Assembly (NCBI RefSeq): GCF_900103535.1
Contig: NZ_FNHQ01000024.1
Span: forward strand, 1 to 38,814
DNA length: 38,814 nucleotides
From: Megasphaera paucivorans
GTDB taxonomy: Bacteria; Bacillota; Negativicutes; Veillonellales; Megasphaeraceae
Direction of reading: 5' to 3'
Shown here: positions 4,660 through 34,378 of the stretch, piece after piece
Position numbering within the stretch: the first letter of the stretch is position 1
Layout: every line of letters begins with the position of its first letter
The notes under the pieces: generated by a model
Told to the model about the DNA's origin: nothing
The model's input: the letters and a program-made list of their open reading frames with translations, nothing else
The model's database searches: none
Program-made: the position numbers and the translations under genes

Positions 4660-5412
4660 TTATTTTAAGTAATCATAAATTGGTTTAGGCTGTGCTAATA
4701 TGACATTAGCTACTATATAACTACAAGATACAATTTCTTTTACAGGTAAATCATTCAATGGACAGTTTACATGATCGAATAATTGTAATCTGGCATCACC
4801 CGTCCATGCTTCTAGAATTTTTACATTAGACTCCCTAATTTGCGATAAGGTCATTTCAGCAATACGAAGAGTTCTATCATAATTTGGATACAATTTCAAC
4901 ATATATGTTGGCGCTGTTAATTGCTTAATTGCTTCAATATCCGAAATCTTTTTATATTTATACGTCATTGTAGCATTAGCAATACGAAACTTTTTATCTC
5001 TTCCATAATCCAAAGTTCCTACAATTGTATTGTTGTCAATATATAAGGATGGATATCCTATCTTTTTAGGGTATGCACTGCTTTCTTTGCCTGCCGCTAT
5101 CGCCTCAAAATTATCTAAGTACATCATATGCAAATAATCACCTTTTAACCCATTATATATTACCGGAATCGCCTGTCCCGACTCTGTGTAACAGCCAAAA
5201 CCAGTTGCATCTTGCATATACATAACCTCAAATCGAACAAGAGGTTCATCTAATAATTGTAATGGCTCCGGTACTACTTTTTCTAACGCCTTACGATCTG
5301 TTTTATAGACAATATATAAATAACCTCGATTATTGAATTTATGTGATATGTTAGGTACCGGATCAGAAATCAGGGGAGTTGTTAAATGTTGCAAGACTTC
5401 TTCTTTTTTCAT
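4660..5412 (-). CDS. adc: Acetoacetate decarboxylase
   Basis: The 250-residue protein matches the clostridial enzyme along its whole length. It converts acetoacetate to acetone and CO2 through a Schiff base. The active-site lysine pair sits in SAYPKKIGYPSLY and the key glutamate in GCYTESGQAIPV. GDYLHMMYLDN, EAWTGDARLQLFDH and LNDLPVKEIVS are near-invariant family blocks. GAGGTG lies 9 bp before the ATG. It is the last gene of the operon, 23 bp after the AtoE-type transporter gene. In this setting it probably removes the acetoacetate made by the BKACE enzyme and pulls that reversible reaction forward (inference). Confidence 0.95.
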   Translation of the reverse strand: MKKEEVLQHLTTPLISDPVPNISHKFNNRGYLYIVYKTDRKALEKVVPEPLQLLDEPLVRFEVMYMQDATGFGCYTESGQAIPVIYNGLKGDYLHMMYLDNFEAIAAGKESSAYPKKIGYPSLYIDNNTIVGTLDYGRDKKFRIANATMTYKYKKISDIEAIKQLTAPTYMLKLYPNYDRTLRIAEMTLSQIRESNVKILEAWTGDARLQLFDHVNCPLNDLPVKEIVSCSYIVANVILAQPKPIYDYLK

Positions 5413-5435
5413 TGTAAATTCACCTCATTATATTT

Positions 5436-6827
5436 TTACCAACCAAACGGGAAAATAAGAAAATAAGCACTACAAACAATTCCTACAAATAACCATAACA
5501 AAAACGTAAACGGCAAAATATCTTGAAATTTAATTTTAAACGCCGCCAAATACGCCAAAGCCCAAAATGGTTGTATCAAATTCGCCCATTGAGCCCCTGA
5601 TCCATAGGCATTGATAACCATTTGTACAGGTACTCCCAACTGTTGTGCAGCTGGAATTAAATAAGGTGCTTCAATGACAAACTTAGACCCAGCAGATGGT
5701 ACAAAGAAATCCATAATTCCAGTGTATATAAAAATTATCCATGGGTAAGTTCCTGGTGTTGCAATAGAAAGAAACCAATTTGTAATTACAATAGCAAGTC
5801 CGGAATAACTAATGATACCAAAAATACCCGCATACATTGGAAATTGAATAACAACACCATAAATAGTACTTGCTCCATCTTTAACAGAATTAATAAAACT
5901 ATTAGGAGAGTCATGCAATAATAATCCAAAACCAAAAAACGCAAAGTTAATAACGTTTAAATTGATATTGCCAATACCATCAACAATAATAAAATTAGCA
6001 ACCCACACTAGAATTAAAATAGCCGCCAAGAAAGTGAGAATACGTGATTTTTCCAACCGTTCAGCGGGTCGAATCCTTCTGTTTTCCACAATCTCTTTAG
6101 GAGTCACGTGAGTAAATTCTTTATAATTTTCTTCACTAATTTCCACAGCATTTTCCGCTTTAGGCTTAATTCCTAAATATATAAGAGGTAAAGACACCAA
6201 GAAAAACAACAACAATGTCATCATGAATGGTGATAAGGATGTCTGACTTATGGGAATAATTCCCATAATATTTTCCAGAAAGTTTCCTGGTGTAGCCGAA
6301 AGAAGAGGTGCTGCTTGAGAAATGCCATTAGCCATAATATTCATACTGGTATATGCAATAGCTACGATATAAGCATAGTGAATACCTCTTCCCTTTTTGC
6401 GAATAGCAATTTCTTTCCCCATAATGATAGTAAGCATAAGACCCATTCCCCAATGAATCCAAGAAACAACGCCGCAAACTAAGGCAAACATAACAATTGT
6501 AGCAGGAACAGATTTGGGTAAATTAATTAATTTAATAATCAGCTTTTTAACGGGTGGTGCATCTGCAATAACAAACCCAGTAACCATCATAATGCTCATC
6601 TGCATAGAAAAAGTCAACAAAGTCCAAAAACCTTTTGCATAATCATCAACTAGTTGCCAAACACCATGTTCCGTAAATCCTAACGAAAGCAAAAATACAA
6701 TTAAGGTTAATAACAAAACAAAAACCATTGAATCCGGAATCCAATCTAAACTCCATTGGATAAATTTATTCATTATTCTAGTTTTTCTATCTTCGCAAAC
6801 ACTTTTCTCTGTTGTTGGTGTTACCAT
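5436..6827 (-). CDS. atoE: Short-chain fatty-acid transporter, AtoE family
   Basis: This 463-residue polytopic membrane protein has about 12 hydrophobic segments and the hallmarks of the AtoE/short-chain fatty-acid transporter family: WSLDWIPDSMVFVLLLT at the N-terminus, GFWTLLTFSMQMSIMMVTG, and a C-terminal FFVPSAGSKFVIEAPYLIPA followed by GSGAQWANLIQPFWAL. The family moves short monocarboxylates such as acetoacetate and butyrate. Here it most likely imports the free beta-hydroxy or beta-keto acid that its neighbours use, though export of acetoacetate is an alternative. A GGAGG site precedes the ATG. A GC-rich hairpin separates it from the dehydrogenase gene upstream. Confidence 0.9.
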   Translation of the reverse strand: MVTPTTEKSVCEDRKTRIMNKFIQWSLDWIPDSMVFVLLLTLIVFLLSLGFTEHGVWQLVDDYAKGFWTLLTFSMQMSIMMVTGFVIADAPPVKKLIIKLINLPKSVPATIVMFALVCGVVSWIHWGMGLMLTIIMGKEIAIRKKGRGIHYAYIVAIAYTSMNIMANGISQAAPLLSATPGNFLENIMGIIPISQTSLSPFMMTLLLFFLVSLPLIYLGIKPKAENAVEISEENYKEFTHVTPKEIVENRRIRPAERLEKSRILTFLAAILILVWVANFIIVDGIGNINLNVINFAFFGFGLLLHDSPNSFINSVKDGASTIYGVVIQFPMYAGIFGIISYSGLAIVITNWFLSIATPGTYPWIIFIYTGIMDFFVPSAGSKFVIEAPYLIPAAQQLGVPVQMVINAYGSGAQWANLIQPFWALAYLAAFKIKFQDILPFTFLLWLFVGIVCSAYFLIFPFGW

Positions 6828-6868
6828 AAATATGACGCCTCCATTCTGCAGAAAATATACGATTATAA

Positions 6869-6901
6869 CCGGGCAGTTTACCTTGAAGCCAAACTGCCCG
6901 G
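6869..6901 (-). other. Intercistronic GC-rich hairpin without T-run
   Basis: An 11-bp perfect stem with arms CCGGGCAGTTT (6869-6879) and AAACTGCCCGG (6891-6901) lies between the dehydrogenase and transporter genes. On the coding (minus) strand it is followed by TTATAATCG, not a T-run. It looks like an mRNA-stabilising, processing or partial-attenuation element rather than a full terminator. Confidence 0.6.
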
Positions 6902-6922
6902 CCTGATAAACAATAAAGCAAT

Positions 6923-7849
6923 CTACTTTTGATACAACATTTTAATAAGATATTTATTTAAGTCATCATTTTCTTTTTTAATTGACGCTTCATCCCATTT
7001 AAAAAAACCTTCACCAGATTTAAATCCTAATTTTCCATTTTTTTTCATTTGTACAATAACGGGAGATGGTTTTGTATCATTGCAAAGATATTGTAAAATA
7101 TATTCATGAATATTATAGGTAAGATCTGTACCAACCATGTCAGAGTTAACCAATGGCGGTAATTGAGGCAGCCGCAGACCAAAACTATATTTAACAGCTT
7201 TATCAACTGTTTCCGCATCAGCAATACCTGCTTCGACAATATGAATTGCTTCTCTCCATAAAGCATGCTGCATGCGATTAGCAATAAAACCTGGTACATC
7301 TTTTTGACAAATAACCGGTTTTTTGCCGACACCCTCTAAAATATGCAATACTGTTTGTGCGGTTTCGTCCGATGATCCATCGGCTTTTACAATTTCAACT
7401 AATGGAATCAACTGCGCTGGATTCCAAAAATGTGTACCGACAAAACGTCTTTTTTCTTTTAGCTTTTTACCAATTTGAGTAGGACTCATAACAGATGTAT
7501 TGGTACAAAAAATGGTATCTTCACGGCAAAGGTCTTCTAATTTTTCAAATACGCCCTGTTTTAGTTCCATGTTTTCAAAAACAGCTTCGACAACTAAATC
7601 AATTTTCTGACAGAATTCTTTTGTTAATTCCGTTTGAAATGCAATGCGGTTTAATTGTGCAGATGCTTCTTTCTGAGACATTACCCCTTTCGCAGCAAAA
7701 TCTTCTAAAGAAGACTTTACTTTACATATCGTATCATTATCCACAATATCATATAAAAAAACTTTATATTCAGGATTACGTGCATATACTTGAGCAATGC
7801 CGCGTCCCATTAATCCTGCTCCATAAATTAATATATTTTTTATTGTCAT
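6923..7849 (-). CDS. 3-hydroxyacyl-CoA dehydrogenase-family enzyme, likely acting on a free 3-hydroxy acid
   Basis: This is a 308-residue NAD-dependent dehydrogenase. The Rossmann motif GAGLMGRGIAQVYA is at residues 10-23, followed by VEAVFENMELKQ. The catalytic region is TNTSVMSPTQIG and GTHFWNPAQLIPLVEIV, with the His/Glu dyad, and the C-terminal domain starts at DVPGFIANRMQHALWREA. The HFWNP...LIPLVE form resembles carnitine dehydrogenase and related enzymes that use free acids more than FadB-type enzymes with HFFNP (inference). It lies 26 bp after the BKACE gene. Together they would turn a beta-hydroxy acid into a beta-keto acid and then cleave it. L-carnitine is one possible substrate, but no betainyl-CoA thioesterase or CoA-transferase is visible. 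Confidence 0.88.
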   Translation of the reverse strand: MTIKNILIYGAGLMGRGIAQVYARNPEYKVFLYDIVDNDTICKVKSSLEDFAAKGVMSQKEASAQLNRIAFQTELTKEFCQKIDLVVEAVFENMELKQGVFEKLEDLCREDTIFCTNTSVMSPTQIGKKLKEKRRFVGTHFWNPAQLIPLVEIVKADGSSDETAQTVLHILEGVGKKPVICQKDVPGFIANRMQHALWREAIHIVEAGIADAETVDKAVKYSFGLRLPQLPPLVNSDMVGTDLTYNIHEYILQYLCNDTKPSPVIVQMKKNGKLGFKSGEGFFKWDEASIKKENDDLNKYLIKMLYQK

Positions 7850-7875
7850 TATATATCACCTTCTATTTTTAAAAA

Positions 7876-8736
7876 TCATTTCCCTAAAATTTCTTTTGTT
7901 TTATTTTTTACACCTAAAATTTTTCTAGCTTCATCAGGTGTTGCTACTTCCTTACCAAATTCATGAATCAATCGAATGGCACGTTCTACAAATTCCACAT
8001 TAGACTTTGCAAGAATTCCTTTGTGCATCATAACATTATCTTCCATTCCAACACGAAGATGCCCTCCCATTGCCAATGTAGTATATAAAATCGGCAATTG
8101 CCCTTTACCAACGGCTACGGCTCCCCATGTACAATCTTTTGGAAGTATGCTGTGCATCCAAACTAAATTATCTACAGTAGCAGCAATTCCACCTTTAACT
8201 CCTAATACTAATTGAAAATGCAGCGATCCTTGTGGTAAGAAACCACGTTTTTGTAAATCAATAGCATTGTAAATCATTCCAGGATCAAAACATTCTATTT
8301 CTGGTTTTACTTCTTGTTTTTGTAACTCTGTACCCAGTTTTTCCAAAAACTGAGGATTATTTTCAAAAATACAAGAATTTTGCCAATTCATAGTACCACA
8401 ATCATATGAAGCAACTTCCGGATGTAATTCAACAAAAGGTTTAATACGAACATCATCCGGCCATCCAGTTCCACCGGATGTCGTTAAATTAATAACAATA
8501 TTAGATTTTGGACGAACTGTATCAACTACTTTTTTAAATTGATCATAACGCATTGAAGCTTTTCCTTCATCATCACGAACATGAATATGTGCAATAGAAG
8601 CACCTGCTTCTGCACAAGCAATAATATCTGCTGTTATTTCTGATGGATCAATAGGCACTGCCGGATTATTTTTTTTTGTTGGATAACCACCAACTGGGGC
8701 AATTGTTAACATTACTTTGTTTGATAAATCTACCAT
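7876..8736 (-). CDS. Beta-keto acid cleavage enzyme (BKACE/KCE family, DUF849)
   Basis: BKACE enzymes are zinc TIM barrels that condense a beta-keto acid with acetyl-CoA to give acetoacetate plus a new acyl-CoA. The founding member, Kce, acts on 3-keto-5-aminohexanoate in lysine fermentation. Seen here: AHIHVRDDEG with the zinc histidines 50 and 52, INLTTSGG, and GGHLRVGMEDN with the zinc glutamate 232 and an arginine that holds the keto acid. The ATG at 8751 overlaps the GGAGG site, so the ATG at 8736 (MVDLSNKVML, 286 residues) is the real start with 8-base spacing. It is the first gene of the operon. No lysine-fermentation genes (kamA, kamD/E, kdd, kal) are nearby, so the substrate is probably a different short beta-keto acid. 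Confidence 0.92.
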   Translation of the reverse strand: MVDLSNKVMLTIAPVGGYPTKKNNPAVPIDPSEITADIIACAEAGASIAHIHVRDDEGKASMRYDQFKKVVDTVRPKSNIVINLTTSGGTGWPDDVRIKPFVELHPEVASYDCGTMNWQNSCIFENNPQFLEKLGTELQKQEVKPEIECFDPGMIYNAIDLQKRGFLPQGSLHFQLVLGVKGGIAATVDNLVWMHSILPKDCTWGAVAVGKGQLPILYTTLAMGGHLRVGMEDNVMMHKGILAKSNVEFVERAIRLIHEFGKEVATPDEARKILGVKNKTKEILGK

Positions 8737-8836: not shown

Positions 8837-8852
8837 TGAAATTATTATGCCA
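8837..8852 (-). promoter_or_regulatory. Candidate sigma-54 (-24/-12) promoter of the BKACE operon
   Basis: On the minus strand the sequence TGGCATA-N4-TTTCA occupies 8852-8837. It has the exact sigma-54 spacing (consensus TGGCACG-N4-TTGCW) and keeps TGGCA. The -12 dinucleotide is TC instead of GC. It lies about 100 bp upstream of the BKACE start, downstream of the palindrome cluster and next to a gene for a sigma-54 activator. The position and context make it better than a chance match. Confidence 0.6.
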
Positions 8853-8889: not shown

Positions 8890-8963
8890 CAATTGTAAAA
8901 TTACATTTACACATTTTACAATTGTAAATAAAAATTGTAATTTTATTTACAATTATTTACAAA
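8890..8963. promoter_or_regulatory. Cluster of AATTGTAAA / TTTACAATT sites (probable activator binding sites)
   Basis: A perfect 14-bp palindrome TTTACAATTGTAAA (8915-8928) is flanked by half-sites: AATTGTAAA at 8891-8899, AATTGTAA at about 8933-8940, TTTACAATT at 8946-8954 and TTTACAAA at 8956-8963. The cluster ends about 40 bp upstream of the sigma-54 promoter candidate. This is the usual placing of an enhancer for an adjacent activator. Confidence 0.6.
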
Positions 8964-8965
8964 CA

Positions 8966-8998
8966 AAAATCGGACAGATTTTTGTTTCTGCCCGATTA
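8966..8998 (-). terminator. Terminator of the sigma-54 activator gene
   Basis: Read on the minus strand, AATCGGGCAG and CTGTCCGATT form a 10-bp stem with one G-U pair around an AAACAAAAAT loop. The stem is followed by TTTTT. It lies about 10 bp after the stop codon at 9009 and separates the regulator from the operon it probably controls. Confidence 0.75.
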
Positions 8999-9008
8999 AA
9001 AATAAATA

Positions 9009-11051
9009 TCATGAGTAAATATTGTTGTTTTTTGAAATACCATATTTTTTTATTTTCTTATATAACGTGGGTCGGCTAAGTCCTAGATATTTAGCAGTTT
9101 TACTAATATTGTTATTGAATGTCTGTAATGTTTTTAGAATAACAAGCTTATCAGACTTTGTCGTCAATTTCTCCGATTCTATATTTTCCCCTCTATTCGT
9201 TTCAGTAATTAATTTATTAGAAAAATCTTCCAATTCAATATACTCGGTCTGACAGACGATCAATGCCCGGTCTACGGCATTTTCTAATTGTCGTATATTA
9301 CCGGGCCAATCATATTTATTTAACATCTGAAGTGCTTCACGAGAAAATCCTTTAACCTTTTTATTATATATTTTTTGATAGTTTGAGAAAAAATATTTTG
9401 CTAATATTTCAACATCTCCTTTCCTTTCACGCAACGGCGGCAGGGGAATAGTAAAAACATTTAAACGATAATATAAATCATCTCGAAATGTTTTATTCTT
9501 AATTTCTTCATCTAAGTCTTTATTTGTTGCCGATATAATTCGAACATTCACCTTGATTGGCTTTGTTCCCCCAATTCGCAATACCTGTCGTGTTTGTAAA
9601 ACACGAAGTAAAGTAATCTGTACATCATACGGCATATCTCCAATTTCATCAAGAAATACAGTTCCCCCATCTGCTAATTCAAATTTTCCGGGATGTCCAT
9701 TTTTATCAGCACCCGTAAATGCACCTTTTTCATAGCCAAAAAGTTCACTCTCAATTAATGTCCGCGGAATAGCTCCGCAATTAATAGCAACAAAAGGTCC
9801 TTTCGCCCTATTACTAGCATGATGAATTGCTTGAGCAAATAGTTCTTTTCCTGTACCACTTTCACCTAATATCATCACAGCAGGATCATGTTGTGCCGCC
9901 ATCTGCGCTAGCCTTTTTACTTTACTCATCTCCTCTGACTGACCAATAATATCCTCAAATGTAAACGATCCCGTAGGATAGACTATTTTAGCTGCTGTTT
10001 GATGAACTTCCGCTCTTTTTTTGATAATCATGATATATTCGGCTCGATCTTCCTGTATCGTATTTTGAATTGTTACATATAATGGATATTCTCCTTTACC
10101 AATAACATTAGCAGCCAATGGCGTTAACAAGTCATAATGATATATTTCATTCTTGTTAGTATGACAATGAATTTTATCAATAGTTAACTTATTATCAATA
10201 AAATTAAATATATTTTTACCCAATATCGCTTCATGACGCAATTGTATTCCTAATAATTGAACAGCATTTTTATTAATTGTTTTTATATTACCTTTATCAT
10301 CAAAATACACTAATCCAGAATCAACACTTTCAACAGTTGTATTTAATCTCCTGTTAATATTCTTGATTGACTTATTCATATCTAAAATTTTTCTATTAGC
10401 AGTCTGTAAAGCCAGTGCTTGAGAAATAGCTTCACCTGCTATAATCGCCATACCAAGTGTATGAACATGGGAATCCCACCAATGACCTGATATGCCAATA
10501 TATCCCAAAACTTTTTTTGTCCGAAGATCAATAATAGGACTGGCAGAACCTGCCAAATTATCGTCAATAGGAGAAGCATGTTCCGTTGCCACTAACATAA
10601 ATGGTTTTTTTAACTTATAGACTAAATGAAAAAGACCACAATAAGGTGCATCTTCACCTCGATTGGATCCCTCTATCAATCCGGTTGCCTTTAATTCCTC
10701 CAACATTTTTGGAGTACCAATTAACTTTAATATAACTCCCTCTGTGTGCATAAAAGTCAACCAAAAACTTTTATGATCAATAAAAGAAAAAATCTTTTTC
10801 ATATAAGGAATCGCAACATGCATAACTTGAGCATTTTTTTCAAGACGTCTTTGTAAATCTCTCACCACTGGTTTATTGGGATAAATATCGTCAAATCCAT
10901 GTTCATAAGATTCTTGCCAACCCATTAATATGTCAGGACGAACACCCACAATATCTTTAAGATTTCTAGTTCTAAAATATTTATCCCGCATTTCACTTAT
11001 ATATTTGACATGTTGGGGATTAAATAAATTTTTAATATCGTCTGTTAACAT
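9009..11051 (-). CDS. Sigma-54-dependent transcriptional activator (AcoR-like: GAF-type sensor, PAS, AAA+, Fis HTH)
   Basis: The 680-residue protein starts with an AcoR-like sensor region (residues about 30-215, with LMGWQESYEHG and HASPIDDNLAGSASPI as family blocks). A PAS domain follows at about 235-345. The sigma-54 AAA+ domain spans about 365-605: Walker A GESGTGKE at 396-403, the sigma-54-contacting GAFTGA at 443-448 and Walker B VFLDEIGD at 465-472. A Fis-type helix-turn-helix lies at 647-670 (NISKTAKYLGLSRPTLYKKI). All motifs needed for activation are intact. It lies immediately upstream of the BKACE operon on the same strand and is very likely its regulator, probably sensing the hydroxy acid or a related metabolite. 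Confidence 0.93.
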   Translation of the reverse strand: MLTDDIKNLFNPQHVKYISEMRDKYFRTRNLKDIVGVRPDILMGWQESYEHGFDDIYPNKPVVRDLQRRLEKNAQVMHVAIPYMKKIFSFIDHKSFWLTFMHTEGVILKLIGTPKMLEELKATGLIEGSNRGEDAPYCGLFHLVYKLKKPFMLVATEHASPIDDNLAGSASPIIDLRTKKVLGYIGISGHWWDSHVHTLGMAIIAGEAISQALALQTANRKILDMNKSIKNINRRLNTTVESVDSGLVYFDDKGNIKTINKNAVQLLGIQLRHEAILGKNIFNFIDNKLTIDKIHCHTNKNEIYHYDLLTPLAANVIGKGEYPLYVTIQNTIQEDRAEYIMIIKKRAEVHQTAAKIVYPTGSFTFEDIIGQSEEMSKVKRLAQMAAQHDPAVMILGESGTGKELFAQAIHHASNRAKGPFVAINCGAIPRTLIESELFGYEKGAFTGADKNGHPGKFELADGGTVFLDEIGDMPYDVQITLLRVLQTRQVLRIGGTKPIKVNVRIISATNKDLDEEIKNKTFRDDLYYRLNVFTIPLPPLRERKGDVEILAKYFFSNYQKIYNKKVKGFSREALQMLNKYDWPGNIRQLENAVDRALIVCQTEYIELEDFSNKLITETNRGENIESEKLTTKSDKLVILKTLQTFNNNISKTAKYLGLSRPTLYKKIKKYGISKNNNIYS

Positions 11052-24652: not shown

Positions 24653-25597
24653 TTACTGTAGTTTATTTCCTAAATTAGTCCATGTCGATTCTTTGTTTTT
24701 AAATCTAACAATTTCATCTACAGCCCCCGTTCCCATACGGATAAGGGCATCGCTGGTATTGGCTCCATTATGCGGCGTACCTACAAAGTTAAAAGATAAA
24801 AACAGTGCATGATCTTTCGGTACGGGTTCTTCAACAAATGCATCAATCGCTGCTCCAAAAATTTGTTTATTATCTAGGGCCGTTGCTAACGCTTCTTCAT
24901 TTACAATCCCTCCACGAGAAGCATTAATAAGAACCGCATTGGGTTTAAACATACTAAATTCTCTCGTATTTACCATATTTCGAGTTTGATCATTTAAAGG
25001 AACGGAAATCGAAATAACGTCACATGTTTTATAAATATCTTCAAGATTTTCGGTGTAGTTAAACCCTATTGCTTCTGTTTTTTCCCGGCCTAAAAAAGGA
25101 TCATATGCTAATACTTCCATATCAAATCCTGCCTGTAACCGCTTACCGACAATAACACCTATATGTCCAATACCAATAAGTCCTATCCTTTTACCGGAAA
25201 TTTCATGACCGCTGAGAAACATTGGCTGATTTTTTTCCAATCCTTTTATACAAGCTAAATGGCTGGCTGTAATCTTGCGTGCACAATCAAGAATAAGACC
25301 AATAATAAGTTCCGCAACAGAGTTTGAATTTGCTGTCGGCGTATTGGTTACAACAATACCTTTCGATTTTGCATAGGAAATATCAATATTATCTACACCA
25401 ACACCATGCTTAGCAATAATTTTCAACTTTGGCATATGATCTATAATTTCTGGAGTCATTTTATACGTACGAACAATTACGGCTTCTGCCTCCGCAAAAT
25501 TTTTAATTTCCGGGTCATCCCAGGTTACCACTTCCAACTGTTCCTTGGCATAGGCCAAGGCATCTTCGGAAATTGGGTCAAAAATATAAGTCTTCAT
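24653..25597 (-). CDS. NAD-dependent D-2-hydroxyacid dehydrogenase (phosphoglycerate dehydrogenase-like)
   Basis: The protein has 314 residues. The catalytic triad of the family is complete: Arg228 in LINASRGGIVNEEAL, Glu257 in DAFVEEPVP and His276 in GTPHNGANT. The nucleotide-binding motif is GLIGIGHIG (about 139-147) followed by YDPF. AKHGVGVDNIDI is also typical. It has no ACT regulatory domain, so it is not a dedicated serine-biosynthesis SerA. It reduces or oxidises a 2-hydroxy/2-oxo acid. As last gene of the module with an ACS-type importer and a DRE-TIM aldolase, it probably oxidises an imported hydroxy acid, or reduces a cleavage product (inference). Confidence 0.88.
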   Translation of the reverse strand: MKTYIFDPISEDALAYAKEQLEVVTWDDPEIKNFAEAEAVIVRTYKMTPEIIDHMPKLKIIAKHGVGVDNIDISYAKSKGIVVTNTPTANSNSVAELIIGLILDCARKITASHLACIKGLEKNQPMFLSGHEISGKRIGLIGIGHIGVIVGKRLQAGFDMEVLAYDPFLGREKTEAIGFNYTENLEDIYKTCDVISISVPLNDQTRNMVNTREFSMFKPNAVLINASRGGIVNEEALATALDNKQIFGAAIDAFVEEPVPKDHALFLSFNFVGTPHNGANTSDALIRMGTGAVDEIVRFKNKESTWTNLGNKLQ

Positions 25598-25634
25598 GAA
25601 CTATAGCCTCCTAGTTTTCATCTTCGAACTTAAC

Positions 25635-26960
25635 TTATTTCTGAATCGGTTCAATCATAGTAATTAACAATACAAATGTAATCAAAGAAATTATTGCTAA
25701 GAATACAAATACCGAATTCCAGCTAAAGGTATCCAATATAACGCCAACTACAAAAGGCGCAAACGCTCCTCCTAAAGAACCTGCTGTATTTACTATTGAA
25801 GCTGCAAATGGACATTTTTCTTTTGTAGTAATACCCATGGGATAAGCTAAAAACATAGAATACCCTAAATTCAAAAATATACCTGCTACAAGCAATAGCA
25901 ACCCCAGCGCAGTAGGATCAGCTGGTGCATATAATAAGGAGATCATAAGAAATACCGTACTGGCTGCCGTAATAAGCATTGTTGGTTTACGGCGGCTTTG
26001 AAACAGTTTATCTGAAATAATACCGCCAAGTAAATTGCCAATAACAGCTCCGACCCATGGAGCCGACGCTACAAGACCTACTTTAATAATAGAAAAATGC
26101 TTTACATGAACAAGATATGTAGGAATCCAAGTCATAATAGTATAGGTAATCCCTACCAGGAAAAAATACCCAAGCGCATCTGCCCATACATTCCATGACT
26201 TAAGAACGTCTTTATTAGTGGCCAACGGATCAATAACACGAGTACGAATCAGCGCATCAAGCGCACGATTTTGTTTAGCAGGTTGTATACTGTTATTTTT
26301 TGTTCCTTCCTTAACAGAAACTGCGGAAGTATTAATATAGTTAACCTCTGCTGCATTAATAAATTTACTATTTTCTGGACTATTACTAACAAAAATATAC
26401 CATAACACCGCTAAAAAAATGCCCGGAATCGCAAATACATAAAATACTTCACGCCAACCATATGTCATGATAATCCAAGCACAAAGGGGTGGTACAAATG
26501 CCGGAGCAAATTTGATAGACGCCATAAACACGCCTGTAGCAATACCTTTCTCTTGTTTCGGAAACCATTTATTAATAGTAGAAAGACATCCAATATTGAT
26601 TGGCCCTTCAGAAAAACCAAGCAAGGCCCTTGCCGCTTTTAAATGCGCTCCCGAATTTGCCAACCCCATAATTAGCGTAGCTGCAGAAGTAAGAACAACT
26701 GCCAATGAAAATAGTTTTTTAACACCATATTTTCCATATAAATGTCCTGACGGGACTTGTACCACTGCATAAGCAATATAAAAGAAACTAGCCATAGCGC
26801 CTATATCCGTATTGGTTAGATTAAAAGATTCCTTCAAATATGGCACAACCATACCAATATTAGAACGATCTGCACCCGCAACCATGTAAATTAAAAATAT
26901 TAACGCTAAAACAAACCAACGAACTTTTGTCTTTTTCATATTCAAAGACTTTGCAATCAT
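25635..26960 (-). CDS. MFS transporter, anion:cation symporter (ACS) family
   Basis: The protein has 441 residues and twelve membrane segments. The ACS signature AGADRSNIGMVVPYLKESF is in TM1-2, followed by GHLYGKYGVKK and GFSEGPINIGCLSTINKWFP. The family carries organic anions such as hexuronates, aldarates, tartrate and phthalate. It is a clear paralogue of the MFS at 34379-35737 (shared GWREVFYVFAIPG / GWRPIFYICAVPG and VASAPWVGAVIGNLLGG / VASAPWIGAVIGNLLGG). AAGGAG lies 8 bases before the ATG. It is the middle gene of module 1. Confidence 0.9.
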   Translation of the reverse strand: MIAKSLNMKKTKVRWFVLALIFLIYMVAGADRSNIGMVVPYLKESFNLTNTDIGAMASFFYIAYAVVQVPSGHLYGKYGVKKLFSLAVVLTSAATLIMGLANSGAHLKAARALLGFSEGPINIGCLSTINKWFPKQEKGIATGVFMASIKFAPAFVPPLCAWIIMTYGWREVFYVFAIPGIFLAVLWYIFVSNSPENSKFINAAEVNYINTSAVSVKEGTKNNSIQPAKQNRALDALIRTRVIDPLATNKDVLKSWNVWADALGYFFLVGITYTIMTWIPTYLVHVKHFSIIKVGLVASAPWVGAVIGNLLGGIISDKLFQSRRKPTMLITAASTVFLMISLLYAPADPTALGLLLLVAGIFLNLGYSMFLAYPMGITTKEKCPFAASIVNTAGSLGGAFAPFVVGVILDTFSWNSVFVFLAIISLITFVLLITMIEPIQK

Positions 26961-26972
26961 TATATATTCTCC

Positions 26973-27965
26973 TTATCTTAACGTATTTGCAATTTCTTCC
27001 ATCAAATCTTTTGATGGATTTTTTTGATTCTTAGCCGACACTTCTACGATTAGTTTATATAAATCAACACCTTTTTCCATCGCAACTTTTTTAAAAATCG
27101 GTAAAAAGCTAGAATGGCAGCCGGAATATCCCAGAATCAAATCAATCGGTGAAATAGGATTATGATATCCTTCCTTTTCCATAGCAGGCATCAATTCCTG
27201 ATCAATGAAATGTAACAAGGTATACAAATCATATTCTTGTACTTTTCCTTCCCGGCGGAACATGGCAATCGCACCTTCTGTCGTAATATTTCCTGCACTG
27301 CGGGCCATTCCCATAAGTCCACAATCAATAAAATCAGCCCCACTGCCTTCTGCTGCAAGCGCATTTGCCATTGCCAGTCCTAAATTGCTATGACCATGAA
27401 ATCCTACCGGTATCGTCACTGCTTCTTTAAGTTTTTTCGTATATTCTGCGGCCTGTGCTGGAAACATATATCCGGCAGAATCCATTATCGTTATCGCTTG
27501 TACCCCAAATGATTCCAACATAGCCGCTTCTGCTGCAAGTTCTTCCGGTGTACATACATACGCCTTCATTATGCTGTACTTTGCTTCCAATCCAGCTTCA
27601 CGTACTAGTTTGACTGCGCGTTCCGCATTTTTTCCATCACCCGCATTAGCGCCAATACGTAAAAAACTAAGTTTTTTAGATGCGGCCAGCATGATTAATT
27701 CTTTATCTGCATTGGCCGCTGCTTGAAACATACCAATACTTGCTTTATCGACAAAAGGTTGTATCACTTCTAAATATTCTTCATCTGTTACCGGAGACTT
27801 TTTACCGCCTGCTTTCATGCTTCCCAATCCAGTACAATGCCCCATTTCAATAATAGAAATATTACTTTGGATCAGACCTTTGATCATCAATGTTGTTAGT
27901 TCTTTAGAAAAACCTGCCCCTACAATATTTGCTCCATCACGAAGTGTACAATCCATTATATCCAT
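26973..27965 (-). CDS. DRE-TIM aldolase (HMGL-like; 4-hydroxy-2-oxovalerate aldolase-like)
   Basis: The protein has 330 residues and begins MDIMDCTLRDGANIVG, the DRE-TIM metallolyase motif (Arg9, Asp10). The two metal histidines are in VGFHGHSNLGLAMAN (His190/His192). DFIDCGLMGMARSAGNITTE is the typical C-terminal barrel block. MhpE/DmpG-type relatives cleave 4-hydroxy-2-oxo acids to pyruvate plus an aldehyde. No acylating aldehyde dehydrogenase partner (MhpF/DmpF) is encoded nearby, so the natural product aldehyde is probably handled otherwise. AGGAGG 7 bases upstream sets the start at 27965, not at an upstream ATG. It is the first gene of module 1, divergent from lysR. Confidence 0.87.
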   Translation of the reverse strand: MDIMDCTLRDGANIVGAGFSKELTTLMIKGLIQSNISIIEMGHCTGLGSMKAGGKKSPVTDEEYLEVIQPFVDKASIGMFQAAANADKELIMLAASKKLSFLRIGANAGDGKNAERAVKLVREAGLEAKYSIMKAYVCTPEELAAEAAMLESFGVQAITIMDSAGYMFPAQAAEYTKKLKEAVTIPVGFHGHSNLGLAMANALAAEGSGADFIDCGLMGMARSAGNITTEGAIAMFRREGKVQEYDLYTLLHFIDQELMPAMEKEGYHNPISPIDLILGYSGCHSSFLPIFKKVAMEKGVDLYKLIVEVSAKNQKNPSKDLMEEIANTLR

Positions 27966-28061
27966 GTTTTTTCCTCCTAATATATATAACTTTATCAGAT
28001 ACGTATCTTCAGTTAGTATCATATCACCCTACGAATTAAAATAAAAACAAATTAATTTTAT

Positions 28062-28090
28062 TGTAAATATTAATTATATTAATATTTACA
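28062..28090. promoter_or_regulatory. 29-bp palindromic operator between lysR and the aldolase module
   Basis: Perfect 12-bp arms TGTAAATATTAA (28062-28073) and TTAATATTTACA (28079-28090) have a 5-base centre. The central part fits the LysR T-N11-A pattern. It lies 47 bp before the lysR start and about 97 bp from the aldolase start, a classic site for a LysR protein. Confidence 0.65.
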
Positions 28091-28137
28091 GTATTGCATA
28101 GAATACGTTATTATATAAATAGATGGAAGGTGATTTT

Positions 28138-29109
28138 ATGAATACTGAACTAATTGAAACCTTTATAACTGTAGCAAATTCGAACAATATTACAAAAAGT
28201 GCGGCGCTTCTCCATGTCTCACAAGCAACGGTCAGTCACCGGATCAAACAATTAGAAACAAAAATGGGCGTTTCTCTTTTAGTGAGACATAAAGGTTCTA
28301 AACAGACAGAACTTACATTGGCCGGGAAAAACTTTCTTCCGTTAGCGCAAACCTGGTTAAACCTAAGTCACGAAATCGACGCTTTTCAATCACGTCCCCA
28401 AGCCATGGAATTAACGATAGGCTTAGTTAACAGCGCTAACAATTATCTATTTCCTGAATTCTATACTCAATTAAAAAAAGACGTTCTTGACTGGCACCTT
28501 ACGATTAAAACCATGCATACACCTGAAATATATGAACAGGTCAGGCTGAATATGATTGATATAGGATTTCCTTTAGCCGAACAGGTTATCCCCGGAATTA
28601 ATGTCAAAAAAGTTCATACGGAAAAATTAATGATCGTAAGCAAGAATCAAATTAAGGACAAAGCCACCCTCATGCCTATTGACCTTGATACCAATAACCA
28701 AATTTATATTAACTGGGGCCCTGATTATCGTCATTGGCATAATCGTTTTTTCCCTCCCAGTGGAACTCCTAAATTCTCTATTGACATGATAAAAGTCGCC
28801 TTAGATCTCCTTGACGAAAAAAGTTGGTTTTTTGCACCGTACAGCATTTGTCAACATTTACAATATAATCATAACTGTTATATATCTAAATTAGCACTCG
28901 ATACACCCTCACGTAACTTATACATGATAACCAGCCGCCTCACGGAGCAAACTAAACGCCGGCAAATTGTCTTATTTAAGCATAAAATCTTGCAATACAT
29001 CAGAAAACGCGAGGACTACATTCAAACAATGCTGGATAATTGTTCTCCCTATGGTACAAAAAAACATTCCTATGCAGCTTATATTCATGAATTTGAACCT
29101 TCAGAGTAG
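28138..29109 (+). CDS. LysR-family transcriptional regulator
   Basis: The protein has 323 residues. The N-terminal helix-turn-helix is LIETFITVANSNNITKSAAL and LHVSQATVSHRIKQLETKMG, followed by an effector domain from about residue 90. GGAAGG upstream makes the ATG at 28138 the start. It is divergent from module 1 with a palindrome between, so it should control that module in response to the imported acid. The effector domain resembles that of the broken LysR at 36940-37819 (shared YLFPEFY/YIFPPLF, PEIYEQVR/AELYPLVE and INWGPDYRHWHN/IPWTPNFKSWHD). The two probably sense related compounds. Confidence 0.92.
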   Translation: MNTELIETFITVANSNNITKSAALLHVSQATVSHRIKQLETKMGVSLLVRHKGSKQTELTLAGKNFLPLAQTWLNLSHEIDAFQSRPQAMELTIGLVNSANNYLFPEFYTQLKKDVLDWHLTIKTMHTPEIYEQVRLNMIDIGFPLAEQVIPGINVKKVHTEKLMIVSKNQIKDKATLMPIDLDTNNQIYINWGPDYRHWHNRFFPPSGTPKFSIDMIKVALDLLDEKSWFFAPYSICQHLQYNHNCYISKLALDTPSRNLYMITSRLTEQTKRRQIVLFKHKILQYIRKREDYIQTMLDNCSPYGTKKHSYAAYIHEFEPSE

Positions 29110-29224
29110 CATTCCACGAAATAATACATACAATTTTTACCTATAATAAAATTATTTAATATTTCCATATTTTAAACTATCCTGTATCTCATAAATATAT
29201 TTTATTGTATAGCAATAAAATATT

Positions 29225-29266
29225 AAAAACAGGGTTTCCTAATTAACTTTAGGAAACCCTGTTTTT
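29225..29266. terminator. Bidirectional terminator between lysR and module 2
   Basis: Perfect 18-bp arms AAAAACAGGGTTTCCTAA (29225-29242) and TTAGGAAACCCTGTTTTT (29249-29266) with a 6-base loop lie between the convergent lysR and dehydrogenase genes. Confidence 0.85.
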
Positions 29267-29287
29267 AGCAAATAAATATTTTTTATA

Positions 29288-30178
29288 TCATTTTAAATGA
29301 AGATTATTATGATCCCACAATATTGCTATATCTTTCCATTGTTCCGGTCGCTTTTCCTGAAAATGATCTCTTGCGTTTATATCCCGAAACCACTCCAGCC
29401 TCTTTGTCGTGGCTTGCGTCATAATAGGAGCTACGCCAATATCTTCAAGCATTTTTGTAACATCTCCCATTTCATGAACCTGTCTATCCGCATGCCAAGC
29501 GCTCGCTACGACAAGGTAATTATTATTAAATTCAAACGCTTTGCCATCAAGAGTATTGCCTATGGAGTCAATAACAAGTTTATCCACTCCGAGAATATTA
29601 GCCGCTTCCAACATTTCTGCTCCAAGAGCCGCAATCCCTTTCATATAAATACTGCGTACAAATTTAACGGCAATAGCATCTCCCGGATTTTTTGTAATTT
29701 CTTTAATATTCATGCCATATGGTGTAAGTGCTTCAATCATGGCTGCACAGTTTGTTCCTGATATTAGGATAGGTACTTTGTAGTGGGATTGACTAAGACT
29801 CGCCATGAGGGCTGCATCAATAAAACTGCCGCCGGTTGGCGCTATCAACCTGTTTTCTTCTTTTTTTACACTAGGCAGGCTGGTTGATGCATCTACAAAT
29901 ATCTTACCTGACCGCATTTGTCCTATAATGCTTTTTGCTGCATCTAAAGCAAACGCACCGGGTACAACAGCAATAATAATATCACACATATCAACAACAT
30001 CGCTATCAGATTCCAGTAAAGTAACCTTTGCCTTTTCCGCCCTTTCTTTTACAAATTTTCCTTTTTCCGCATGATGTTGCAGAGCATCATATGCATATAC
30101 TTCAGTAAGCCCTTGTGATACAAGACCAGAACTGATTTCATAACCAACTTCACCAAAGCCGATAAAACCTAATTTCAT
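29288..30178 (-). CDS. Beta-hydroxyacid dehydrogenase-like oxidoreductase with DUF1932 C-terminal domain
   Basis: The protein has 296 residues. An N-terminal 6-phosphogluconate-dehydrogenase-type Rossmann domain (MKLGFIGFGEVGYEIS; DIIIAVVPGAFALDAAK; FVDASTSLPS) is followed by a helical DUF1932-type domain (AVKFVRSIYMKGIAALGAEM, with the likely catalytic Lys). Relatives oxidise 3-hydroxy or 2-hydroxy sugar acids; the exact substrate is unknown. A GAGAGGCGG tract places the start at 30178 rather than at the TTG at 30202. It is the last gene of module 2, 39 bp after rraA copy A. A decayed copy of its 5' end lies behind rraA copy B. Confidence 0.82.
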   Translation of the reverse strand: MKLGFIGFGEVGYEISSGLVSQGLTEVYAYDALQHHAEKGKFVKERAEKAKVTLLESDSDVVDMCDIIIAVVPGAFALDAAKSIIGQMRSGKIFVDASTSLPSVKKEENRLIAPTGGSFIDAALMASLSQSHYKVPILISGTNCAAMIEALTPYGMNIKEITKNPGDAIAVKFVRSIYMKGIAALGAEMLEAANILGVDKLVIDSIGNTLDGKAFEFNNNYLVVASAWHADRQVHEMGDVTKMLEDIGVAPIMTQATTKRLEWFRDINARDHFQEKRPEQWKDIAILWDHNNLHLK

Positions 30179-30924
30179 TTTTTCTTCCGCCTCTCTAATC
30201 AATCTTATACTGACACATTAAATAATTTCACAACCGATTTCTTCAAGTTTTTCATCAACCCATGGACGCACATAAGAACATTCATTCACAATTTTATCCA
30301 TAATACCTGCTTCTTTTTCCATGACCTGCTTTGTTTTGGCCGCTAATTCTTCTGCTTCTTCTGGCTTTATAACAATAATGCCATCGCCATCTCCTACAAT
30401 AATGTCGCCCGGGCAAATCACTTTACCACCAAATGAAATTACCGTATTAATTTCTCCGGGACCATTTTTATATGGCCCATTGGGAATAGCCCCTTTTGCA
30501 TATACAGGAAAATCCATTGCTGCAATTTCATCATAATCGCGGATAACTCCATCGAGAATAACCCCGGCAAGTCCACGTTTATGACAATACGTAATCATAA
30601 GTTCTCCGAAAATAGCACGAGTTACATCCCCGCCGGCATCAATGACGATAACATCCCCAGGCTGTGCCATATCCATTGCTTTGTGAAACATAAGATTGTC
30701 GCCTTCCGGAACTTTTACGGTAAACGCGGTCCCTAAAAGCGGTGTCTTATTCATAGGAACAATATCCGAACGAACCGCTGCCGTCCGATTCATGCAATCA
30801 TCAATATTAGCTACAGGCATCCCCTTAAATAACTCGACAACCTTACGATCTGGTCTTTTAAAATCCTTAATAATTTTGCATCCAACATTTCCCATTATAC
30901 TGCGCCTCCTAATAAGTTAAATAT
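30149..30924. repeat. Direct repeat copy A (rraA plus 5' end of the DUF1932 gene)
   Basis: This segment aligns without any gap to 33579-34354 at a constant offset of 3430. By eye there are about 12 substitutions in the 678-bp rraA coding region, about 6 in the 40 bp covering the dehydrogenase start, and an abrupt loss of similarity at both ends. Confidence 0.9.
30218..30895 (-). CDS. RraA/HMG-aldolase-family protein, copy A
   Basis: The protein has 225 residues and belongs to the family of 4-hydroxy-4-methyl-2-oxoglutarate (HMG) aldolase/oxaloacetate decarboxylase and RraA-like proteins. The metal and substrate residues are present in FGELMITYCHKRGLAGVILD and DGVIRDYDEI (Arg and Asp). Family blocks PGDVIVIDAGGDVTRA and PGDIIVGDGDGIIVIKPEEA are also visible. 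Class II enzymes of this type make pyruvate from HMG or oxaloacetate. AGGAGG precedes the ATG. It is 21 bp after the amidohydrolase gene. It is nearly identical to copy B (one amino-acid change, Val in place of Ile in GDII(V/I)GDG), and the identity extends outside the gene. Confidence 0.9.
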   Translation of the reverse strand: MGNVGCKIIKDFKRPDRKVVELFKGMPVANIDDCMNRTAAVRSDIVPMNKTPLLGTAFTVKVPEGDNLMFHKAMDMAQPGDVIVIDAGGDVTRAIFGELMITYCHKRGLAGVILDGVIRDYDEIAAMDFPVYAKGAIPNGPYKNGPGEINTVISFGGKVICPGDIIVGDGDGIIVIKPEEAEELAAKTKQVMEKEAGIMDKIVNECSYVRPWVDEKLEEIGCEII

Positions 30925-32050
30925 TTTCATTTAAATACAGTATTTTTCCATTTAAAATTGTTGCCTCAGGTGATAAATAAATATCTCCTTTTTTTTCTTT
31001 CCCACACGCATCTGCGAAACTGTGTAATGTGGATTTGATTTCACAAATACAAACATCTGCTTGCGCACCTTCTTTTAATGTCCCAATGATATTTTCCATC
31101 CCCATTAAACGTGCCGGAATCTCTGTAACACTTTGAATAACACTATTTAACGGCACTCCAAGACTTAAATATTTTGACATTACAAATGGTAAATTTTTTA
31201 CCATGGACACTCCTGGAGTATTAAAACTTACACTTGTTAAATCAGTACTAATAATATCTGGAAAAAACTTTTCCGCCAAAGCCGATTGTGCTACATCATA
31301 GCTAAAATTTAAACGCCCATTCGCAGCATCAAAAATAATTCCCTTTTTCTTGGCTTCCCAAAATTCTTTTTTAACTACAGAGTTACTATTAATAATAGTA
31401 TTACCATTTCCTTGAAAAACATGGCAATAAATATCTCCCTTGCGTAACATAGATACAAGTTTTTCTGTTGCAATAGGTGGATTTGTTGTGTGAACACATA
31501 CAGGTACTTTAAGTTTTTCCGCAATATTTAACGTTTTTTGCAGCGGTTCAATGCCAAAATCGCCTACAGTGTTTTTACTAAATCTAATCTTAATTCCAAT
31601 TATATTATTTTTGTATTTGCAAATTATATTAGCTAATTGATTTTCATTAAAAATATTGGGATCTAAACATTCTTCTATGTTTCCCCCAGGTTGACCTATA
31701 GGATATATATTTACAAATGACTTAATTCTCATTGTTTTGGAAACAATTTCATTACAATAAAAATCCTCAAAATTAATATACCCTGCCGTGCCTTGATCTA
31801 CTACGGTAGTTACTCCGTAAGGAAATAATAAATCTGGATTCACTGCTAATGTACTTGCTTGATACACGTGCGTATGAAAATCAATAAATCCCGGAAATAC
31901 ATATTTTCCGCTGGCATCTATTTTATATATTGCATCTATATTAACTTTATAAGGTACAATGTATCCATCTTTAATAGCTATTGTCTTTTTCTCTTCGATT
32001 TTTTCATATGGATCTATAACAAACCCATTTTCAATAACTAAGTCATACAT
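30917..32050 (-). CDS. Amidohydrolase/dihydroorotase-like metallohydrolase
   Basis: The protein has 377 residues. The layout is of the amidohydrolase superfamily: an N-terminal beta-sandwich (MYDLVIENGFVIDPYEK), HxH in GFIDFHTHVYQ (His59/His61), a probable carbamylated lysine in IIGIKIRFSKN, further metal histidines in CVHTTNPP and IYCHVFQG, the active Asp in IISTDLTS, and a C-terminal GTLKEGAQADVCICE. It resembles the group annotated as EF_0837-like probable amidohydrolases, whose substrates are unknown. GGAG at about 8 bases sets the start at 32050, 30 bp after the MFS stop. It probably opens an amide or lactam to release the acid handled by the rest of module 2 (inference). Confidence 0.87.
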   Translation of the reverse strand: MYDLVIENGFVIDPYEKIEEKKTIAIKDGYIVPYKVNIDAIYKIDASGKYVFPGFIDFHTHVYQASTLAVNPDLLFPYGVTTVVDQGTAGYINFEDFYCNEIVSKTMRIKSFVNIYPIGQPGGNIEECLDPNIFNENQLANIICKYKNNIIGIKIRFSKNTVGDFGIEPLQKTLNIAEKLKVPVCVHTTNPPIATEKLVSMLRKGDIYCHVFQGNGNTIINSNSVVKKEFWEAKKKGIIFDAANGRLNFSYDVAQSALAEKFFPDIISTDLTSVSFNTPGVSMVKNLPFVMSKYLSLGVPLNSVIQSVTEIPARLMGMENIIGTLKEGAQADVCICEIKSTLHSFADACGKEKKGDIYLSPEATILNGKILYLNENI

Positions 32051-32079
32051 AGTTTCATCTCCATTAATCACACTGACAC

Positions 32080-33381
32080 TCACACTGACACATCAATTTC
32101 TTCTTTCTTAAACTTTACAAAAAATGCACAAATAACACCTATCAAACATATTGTCCCCGCTAAAACAAATCCTGCATTATATCCATAATTTGTTACCATA
32201 ATGCCCGTAATAGTTGGTGCCAACATAGCTGCCGTTTGCCCAAGGAAATGCATAATTCCGCCAAAAGCTCCGGTTCTAGTCGGATCAATATCAATTAAAT
32301 TACTCCAATAAATAGAATTCGAAGCTAAAGCCGCGGTATTTCCAAGTGCCATAAACGTTAAAGCTCCCGTCATGCTATTAACAGTCGGAATTAATATAAA
32401 ACAAACTCCCGATAATAAAAGAGATGCCATTGCAACGCTATTTCTAGCAATTCTGAGGTTTTTAGTTTTTTTAAAAATAAGATCTGCAATTTTACCACCA
32501 AAAGGGGTAGAAAAAATAGGTCCTAACCATGGAATCATTCCTAAATACCATAAGGATTTCAAGCTCATGCCATAAACATCCTGTAAATATTTAGGTGTCC
32601 ATGTTAAAAGCATAAAAATGATATAACTAATTGCAAAAAATCCTACTGTATTAAATAAATAGGATGAATTTTTAAAAAAATCATACCAATGAAAATTTTT
32701 AGCTTCTTGGGCCGTTGCTACTACTTTAGATGTTTCACCTTGTCTAATTTCTGCCAATTCCTCTTTAGATACTCTTGGGTTTTCTTCTGGTAAGTTTGTA
32801 AAAATACGTGAAAAAACAAGTACCCAAATAAGTCCCAAAAATCCTAACATCAAAAACGATATTTTCCAATTAAACATAGAAATCAAAAATACGGCAATGG
32901 GTGCTGTAATTACGGAACCAAGCGGAGTTCCTATTAACGTGATGGAGGCTGTAAACGTTCTTTCCTTTGGTGCTACCCAATTAGCAAGAGTACGACTCAT
33001 TGACACGAAAGATGGCCCTTCCGCAAAGCCAAACAACGCACGAACTACAAAAAAACCAGCCATGGCTGAACCGCCAAATATTGCAATACCTAAATTACCC
33101 GCATAAGCAGTTAATGCAACAAAAATTGACCAAATAGTCACAAATGTTAACCAAACAAAACGCGGCCCTTTTTTATCTGCTAATACTCCACCAAACAATC
33201 CCCCAAAAATATATCCATAACCAAAAAATCCTTGAATACTTCCCCATTGAGCCGGGGTAAATCCAAACTCTTCTATAATATCCTGCTGCGCATAAGCTAA
33301 AGCGCCCCGATCAATATAATTGATCGTCATAATAAGTAATACCATAAAAATAACCCAATAACGATATTTAGTTGTTCTCAT
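32080..33381 (-). CDS. MFS transporter, anion:cation symporter (ACS) family
   Basis: The protein has 433 residues and twelve membrane segments. The ACS pattern is INYIDRGALAYAQQDIIEEF in TM1, GGVLADKKGPRFVW in loop 2-3, and GFAEGPSFVSMSRTLANWVA. It is more distant from the other two MFS proteins of the region than they are from each other, so its substrate is likely different. AAAGGAGG precedes the ATG. It is the first gene of module 2, directly behind direct repeat copy B. Confidence 0.9.
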   Translation of the reverse strand: MRTTKYRYWVIFMVLLIMTINYIDRGALAYAQQDIIEEFGFTPAQWGSIQGFFGYGYIFGGLFGGVLADKKGPRFVWLTFVTIWSIFVALTAYAGNLGIAIFGGSAMAGFFVVRALFGFAEGPSFVSMSRTLANWVAPKERTFTASITLIGTPLGSVITAPIAVFLISMFNWKISFLMLGFLGLIWVLVFSRIFTNLPEENPRVSKEELAEIRQGETSKVVATAQEAKNFHWYDFFKNSSYLFNTVGFFAISYIIFMLLTWTPKYLQDVYGMSLKSLWYLGMIPWLGPIFSTPFGGKIADLIFKKTKNLRIARNSVAMASLLLSGVCFILIPTVNSMTGALTFMALGNTAALASNSIYWSNLIDIDPTRTGAFGGIMHFLGQTAAMLAPTITGIMVTNYGYNAGFVLAGTICLIGVICAFFVKFKKEEIDVSV

Positions 33382-33578
33382 AAATACACTATCCTCCTTT
33401 AATATTTTTAATTATTATTTTCTAAAATATAATTAAATATTAATTGTGAATAATTTATACGATTGAAATACTAATGCATCTCCTTTTTTTGTGAAATTAA
33501 AAGCACTTAATCTGTCATGCTAAACTACAGTTTTGTATATTACGTAATTAAAAGTCTATAAAATTAGATACGAGATTT

Positions 33579-33609
33579 TTCACCAAAACTGATAAAACCC
33601 AATTTTACT
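33579..33609 (-). pseudogene. Decayed 5' stub of the DUF1932 dehydrogenase gene
   Basis: On the minus strand, just behind rraA copy B, the frame reads VKLGFISFGE, matching MKLGFIGFGE at the start of the intact gene (30178). The start codon is lost (GTA in place of ATG) and similarity stops after about 10 codons. The stub shows that the duplication once reached into this gene. The rest of 33382-33578 is AT-rich with no gene. Confidence 0.75.
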
Positions 33610-33647
33610 TTTTCTTTCGCCTCTCTAATCAATCTTATACTGACACA

Positions 33648-34325
33648 TTAAATAATTTCACAACCAATTTCTTCAAGTTTTTCATCAACCCATGGACGCA
33701 CATAAGAACATTCATTCACAATTTTATCCATAATACCTGCTTCTTTTTCCATGACCTGTTTTGTTTTGGCCGCTAATTCTTCTGCTTCTTCTGGCTTTAT
33801 AACAATGATGCCATCGCCATCTCCTATAATAATGTCGCCAGGGCAAATCACTTTACCACCGAATGAAATTACCGTATTAATTTCTCCGGGACCATTTTTA
33901 TATGGCCCATTGGGAATAGCCCCTTTTGCATATACAGGAAAATCCATTGCTGCAATTTCATCATAATCGCGGATAACTCCATCGAGAATAACCCCGGCAA
34001 GTCCACGTTTATGACAATACGTAATCATAAGTTCTCCGAAAATAGCACGAGTTACATCCCCGCCGGCATCAATGACGATAACATCCCCAGGCTGTGCCAT
34101 ATCCATTGCTTTGTGAAACATAAGATTGTCGCCTTCCGGAACTTTTACGGTAAATGCGGTTCCCAAAAGCGGTGTCTTATTCATAGGAACAATATCCGAA
34201 CGAACCGCTGCCGTCCGATTCATACAATCATCAATATTAGCTACAGGCATCCCCTTGAATAACTCGACAACCTTACGATCCGGTCTTTTAAAATCCTTAA
34301 TAATTTTGCATCCAACATTTCCCAT
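33648..34325 (-). CDS. RraA/HMG-aldolase-family protein, copy B
   Basis: The protein has 225 residues and is identical to copy A except for one Val-to-Ile change (GDIIIGDG). It has the same metal and substrate motifs and the same AGGAGG site. Most of the roughly dozen base changes are silent, so both copies have been kept functional or are recently duplicated. It is the last gene of module 3, after the Ldh2-type dehydrogenase and MFS genes, where it would cleave or decarboxylate the 2-oxo acid made by the dehydrogenase (inference). Confidence 0.9.
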   Translation of the reverse strand: MGNVGCKIIKDFKRPDRKVVELFKGMPVANIDDCMNRTAAVRSDIVPMNKTPLLGTAFTVKVPEGDNLMFHKAMDMAQPGDVIVIDAGGDVTRAIFGELMITYCHKRGLAGVILDGVIRDYDEIAAMDFPVYAKGAIPNGPYKNGPGEINTVISFGGKVICPGDIIIGDGDGIIVIKPEEAEELAAKTKQVMEKEAGIMDKIVNECSYVRPWVDEKLEEIGCEII

Positions 34326-34378
34326 TATACTGTGCCTCCTAATAAGTTAAATATATATTGTCAATCTGTAAAACCATG

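Follow-up and report, generated by a model that had tools for sequence, protein, structure and literature searches.

We propose that a four-gene operon of Megasphaera paucivorans encodes the downstream half of anaerobic phloroglucinol breakdown together with an acetoacetate decarboxylase (ADC), and that it would provide acid import, a dehydrogenase (TfD) step, a triacetate acetoacetate-lyase (TAL) step and acetone formation; we regard this reading as probable, though well short of certain. The operon lies in the window, by which we mean the whole 38,814-nucleotide stretch of DNA analysed, in a genome of 2.9 Mb that is 99.97% complete and whose family is taken to be Megasphaeraceae, in the class Negativicutes. 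In operon order, its genes are:

7876..8736, minus strand: TAL-clade member of the BKACE family, probable triacetate acetoacetate-lyase (PF05853 at 2.9e-95, tree, pocket residues)
6923..7849, minus strand: TfD-clade free 3-hydroxyacid dehydrogenase (HADH) of the 3HCDH family, probable (S)-3-hydroxy-5-oxohexanoate dehydrogenase (PF02737, 3HCDH_N, at 2e-52, residues, tree)
5436..6827, minus strand: AtoE/SCFA_trans-family permease, probable importer of the inferred acid substrate (PF02667 at 1.1e-103)
4660..5412, minus strand: ADC with intact active site (PF06314 at 3.3e-63, match to 3bh2 at 1.4e-94)

All four frames are intact, and coordinates, frames and Pfam matches bear out the four-gene operon recognized in a preliminary description of this DNA. 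The genes are separated by 26, 95 and 23 bp, and each is preceded by an RBS-like sequence. We also agree with the earlier placement of the BKACE start at 8736 rather than at the end of the longer ORF (8751), because the ATG at 8736 is preceded by GGAGG. The arrangement is not due to chance, since Colibacter and one other member genome of the family keep the BKACE-HADH-AtoE core.

The known counterpart of these enzymes is the phloroglucinol pathway of C. scatologenes, in which phloroglucinol is reduced by PGR and ring-opened by DPGC to (S)-3-hydroxy-5-oxohexanoate, TfD oxidises this acid to triacetate, and TAL, itself a BKACE, converts triacetate and acetyl-CoA to acetoacetyl-CoA and acetoacetate (PMC10470551). 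We read the neighbouring genes at the 80 BKACE loci nearest to that of the window and found a PF04199 cyclase at 37 of them, the commonest partner besides HADH. Many of the cyclase-bearing loci also carried an SDR, a 3HCDH-family enzyme, a cupin, two CoA-transferase subunits and a thiolase, which is the published C. scatologenes gene set (PMC10470551); a DAPG hydrolase was at times among the partners. In a tree built by maximum likelihood, the BKACE of the window and the orthologue from Colibacter were nested in a 72-row clade with the TALs of phloroglucinol clusters (support 100/99), with Enterococcus and Isobaculum sequences as their sister group (92/88), while Kce of lysine fermentation stood apart. 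CsTAL itself was absent from the tree, and the TAL clade is therefore named by its phloroglucinol gene content and residues.

The fold and pocket of the enzyme are already fixed by its solved homologue Kce (2y7d), a member of the same family. The Zn ligands and catalytic residues (His, His, Glu, Arg and Asp, at the Kce positions His46, His48, Glu230, Arg226 and Asp231) are kept in the window BKACE. Glu14 of Kce, which binds the 5-amino group, is replaced by Trp in CsTAL (PMC10470551) and by Tyr in the window enzyme, in Colibacter and in most members of the Enterococcus sister clade; the remaining pocket positions checked carry the letters of the TAL clade. The protein scored 299.7 bits against an NCBIfam equivalog cut-off of 382 bits. 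A role in lysine fermentation was rejected on the missing Glu14, and no lysine-fermentation genes adjoin the window BKACE, which also lies outside the Kce branch. Collectively, these features point to a probable TAL. The beta-keto acid could nevertheless differ, given Tyr rather than Trp at position 14 and an Enterococcus sister clade with a different gene set that lacks HADH and SDR. Specifically, TAL-clade BKACEs with Tyr or Phe at this position occur in Enterococcus/Isobaculum (L009, L014, L016) and Orbaceae (L034, L039, L044, L076), beside a cyclase and other genes and without HADH or SDR; owing to that lack, these BKACEs may use a different ring or lactone that gives triacetate directly.

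The dehydrogenase resembles CsTfD, which has lost the CoA-contacting Lys56 and Asn221 and retains Ser, His and Asn (PMC10470551). Likewise, the window HADH keeps the Ser, His and Asn of 3-hydroxybutyryl-CoA dehydrogenase, with Val in place of Lys56 and Gly in place of Asn221; the numbering is that of a C. butyricum Hbd sequence whose residues 56, 117, 138, 188 and 221 matched the published ones. The contrast in CoA-contact residues was repeated with the HADH homologues of the source genome itself: two CoA-type enzymes retain Asn221 and carry Lys or Arg at position 56. In an HADH tree, the window protein fell inside the TfD clade, with whose members it shares the motifs TNTSVMSPT, THFWNPAQLIP and PGFIANRMQH. 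It looks like a free-acid rather than a CoA-ester enzyme, in keeping with the oxidation of a free 3-hydroxy acid suggested earlier, and is a probable (S)-3-hydroxy-5-oxohexanoate dehydrogenase.

With both enzymes in the TfD and TAL clades, the acid is likely to be (S)-3-hydroxy-5-oxohexanoate, and the acyl-CoA would be acetoacetyl-CoA. The general chemistry of the preliminary description thus stands, in that the BKACE falls in a clade whose characterised member moves an acyl part to CoA and sets free acetoacetate, which an intact ADC could remove; its named substrates, 3-hydroxyvalerate, branched acids and carnitine, probably give way to the TfD/TAL substrate. Degradation of carnitine by CdhA/CdhC-type enzymes also employs a free 3-hydroxy acid dehydrogenase followed by a BKACE, but the window operon has neither a thioesterase nor a quaternary-amine carrier. 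Carnitine was rejected because carnitine dehydrogenase models gave the window HADH only 114-134 bits, compared with about 227 for 3HCDH models, and their equivalog cut-offs were missed (133.7 of 592 and 114.3 of 414 bits). Elsewhere in the same genome (L100, G000:C72:8000-19000), a second AtoE-family carrier gene adjoins those of a CoA-transferase and a 3HCDH-family enzyme whose motifs are in part TfD-like; these genes may serve a further route for a free 3-hydroxy acid.

Like the C. scatologenes cluster, the window operon places a TAL-clade BKACE next to a 3HCDH enzyme with TfD residues, with acetoacetate and acetoacetyl-CoA as the expected products. In contrast, it lacks PGR, DPGC, CoA-transferase and thiolase genes, and has an AtoE-type carrier and ADC. 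The source genome contains no DPGC; its sole PF04199 protein is 27% identical to the cyclases of DPGC clusters, most of which share 70-90% identity with their closest relatives. Nor is there a close PGR, the best SDR being 43% identical to an SDR in the PGR position. A DPGC query, which recovered all four genomes with phloroglucinol clusters used as positive control, had no match across 61 genomes from the order at a threshold of 1e-15. Colibacter likewise gave no match, nor did the genomes of L046, L055, L066, L071 and L049, and those of L062 and L070 gave only distant cyclases (39-41%). The genome thus lacks the DPGC and PGR that a complete phloroglucinol pathway of the known kind requires.

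The cyclase-less arrangement recurs. HADH and BKACE together with an AtoE-family carrier but no cyclase were found at 11 of the 80 loci, Colibacter included, some of them from incomplete assemblies and one (L050) with an HADH outside the TfD clade. The window carrier is 75% identical to its orthologue in the same Colibacter operon. Within the family, the locus of G020 is identical to that of Colibacter massiliensis, and another genome (G026) has the same gene order with broken genes. In this single-contig genome, HADH and BKACE are both split by frame breaks (L101, G026:C1:2080500-2090000), reflecting either decay or sequencing error. The cyclase-less carrier loci are scattered over the BKACE tree, and outside the family their AtoE carriers are only about 26-32% identical to that of the window, so HADH, BKACE and carrier seem to have come together on more than one occasion; the low carrier identity also counts against our reading.

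ADC, by contrast with the other three genes, was found beside BKACE in this genome alone among those sampled. The window protein aligns over its full length with the C. acetobutylicum-type ADC 3bh2 (about 60% identity) and scores above both family cut-offs (213.8 against 29.8 bits; 288 against 150). It keeps the active-site residues Arg29, Glu76, Lys115 and Lys116, the two lysines being catalytic. In solvent-forming C. acetobutylicum, acetoacetate comes from acetoacetyl-CoA by CoA-transferase, whereas here it would come from the BKACE reaction. No ADC gene adjoined BKACE at any of the 80 loci. The same held for the 379 other genomes of the class, among which 16 carry an ADC and 42 a BKACE match (17 and 43 among all 380 with the window's own). 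Conversely, no BKACE lay within the flanks of about 1.5 kb read beside nine ADC genes from a set of 391 genomes belonging to the class of G380, and we discarded the idea of a conserved BKACE-ADC partnership. A literature search on BKACE with ADC, or on ADC in Megasphaera, returned nothing relevant. The preliminary description had named a lack of conserved BKACE-ADC co-occurrence in other genomes as one ground for refutation, and no such co-occurrence was seen in any collection sampled; this does not refute the mechanism in the window genome, since the other three genes are conserved together. The pairing is an addition in one lineage, so far in a single genome, and the ADC gene was probably acquired horizontally.

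It is improbable that the ADC gene is a recent hitch-hiker serving general acetoacetate disposal apart from the BKACE step. Such a view would account for its pairing with BKACE in no other genome sampled and for its nearest relatives found, which are Clostridium-type (58-60% identity, 58% to L179) as against 52% for the nearest others of its own class. Nevertheless, the gene starts 23 bp after AtoE on the same strand with its own RBS, no terminator lies between the two, and the enzyme encoded upstream is expected to produce acetoacetate. If the BKACE releases acetoacetate here, ADC has a role, because TAL is reversible (PMC10470551) and another BKACE is inhibited by acetoacetate with an IC50 of 1.45 mM (PMC11961710). 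Counting against our explanation, the genome has CoA-transferases, and decarboxylation of acetoacetate wastes carbon compared with activation by such an enzyme.

The region upstream of the operon contains the following features:

9009..11051, minus strand: sigma-54-dependent activator (PAS, AAA+, Fis-type HTH), probable operon regulator (PF00158 at 1.3e-72)
8968..8997, minus strand: intrinsic terminator behind the regulator gene (stem of 11 bp followed by a T run)
8892..8962, minus strand: TTGTAAA/TTTACAA repeat cluster, probable upstream activator sites (repeats in relatives)
8837..8852, minus strand: sigma-54 promoter-like element TGGCATAATAATTTCA (recurs at the same place in relatives)

The activator gene has a homologue beside the operon in Colibacter and G026. 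In both relatives, similar GTGTAAA..TTTACAC repeats precede the operon, and a promoter-like element occupies the same place (TGGCACGAAAGTTTCA in Colibacter, TGGCATGAAAATTTCG in G026); all three operons are thus headed by TGGCAYNNNNNTTTCR elements preceded by TGTAAA/TTTACA repeats. Support for the element comes from this recurrence, as counts of sigma-54 motifs within the window are at chance level. Elements and repeats fit the adjacent activator, which would switch the operon on. Sigma-54 activator genes also adjoin cyclase-less TfD-TAL-carrier loci in unrelated bacteria (L062, L065, L067, L070, L055, L049 and L066).

Elsewhere in the window, a gene for a KDPG/KHG aldolase-family protein (1967-2947), of which about 120 C-terminal residues had no Pfam match at the threshold used, sits behind an amino acid permease gene. 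Genes on one strand at 24653-35737 (three MFS carriers, an HMGL/DmpG-like aldolase, a 2-hydroxyacid dehydrogenase and an amidohydrolase) form a possible further catabolic cluster.

In the mechanism that we favour, the AtoE-type carrier would import a ring-opened 3-hydroxy acid, most likely (S)-3-hydroxy-5-oxohexanoate from phloroglucinol-degrading neighbours. TfD would oxidise it with NAD+ to triacetate (3,5-dioxohexanoate), and TAL would convert triacetate and acetyl-CoA to acetoacetyl-CoA and acetoacetate. By turning acetoacetate into acetone and CO2, ADC would pull the reversible TAL step. Acetoacetyl-CoA could pass to thiolase, giving acetyl-CoA, or to butyrate formation; thiolase and CoA-transferases are encoded elsewhere in the genome. 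Down to thiolase, the net conversion would be acid + NAD+ + CoA to acetyl-CoA + acetone + CO2 + NADH.

The same type of reaction, still forming acetone, might instead serve another short 3-hydroxy acid (e.g. 3-hydroxyhexanoate, 3-hydroxyvalerate or a hydroxylated relative), with the TfD/TAL scaffold retuned through Tyr 14. The Tyr-for-Trp exchange that the window enzyme shares with Colibacter and with most sequences of the Enterococcus sister clade would suit such retuning, as would the promiscuity of BKACEs (PMC4922564, PMC11961710) and a genome without ring-opening enzymes. We consider it rather unlikely, as every other pocket position checked is that of the TAL clade, the active-site motifs of HADH are TfD-like, and the relative activity of CsTfD on acetoacetate is only 0.02% (PMC10470551), so that a homologue makes poor use of simple 3-keto acids. 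3-Hydroxybutyrate was rejected both for this very weak activity and because the BKACE step would be futile. Much less probable still is a reverse or redox role, in which acetoacetyl-CoA and acetoacetate would be joined to triacetate and a 3-hydroxy acid secreted, with ADC as an overflow outlet. TAL and TfD are indeed reversible in vitro (PMC10470551), and AtoE-family carriers could in principle run either way; yet the homologues stand in catabolic clusters, and ADC would drain the substrate of the reverse pathway.

The lower phloroglucinol pathway with ADC remains our preferred reading, and suggests a variant of the known route in which the downstream half is joined to a carrier and an acetone-forming enzyme and the ring-opening half is missing. 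More tentatively, and with somewhat less than even confidence, several unrelated gut bacteria may have kept or gained the downstream half with a carrier as cross-feeders on 3-hydroxy-5-oxohexanoate, with the ADC pull of the Megasphaera relative creating an interspecies route from dietary polyphenols to acetone; as a point against our reading, we found no paper showing the free acid in gut contents. If true, gut phloroglucinol, a hub of flavonoid and tannin breakdown, would be degraded in part through shared work, one species handing a free intermediate to another. Bacterial ADC could then supply a second, CoA-transferase-free source of acetone, and genes now labelled as lysine-fermentation or 3-hydroxyacyl-CoA enzymes would receive a concrete annotation.
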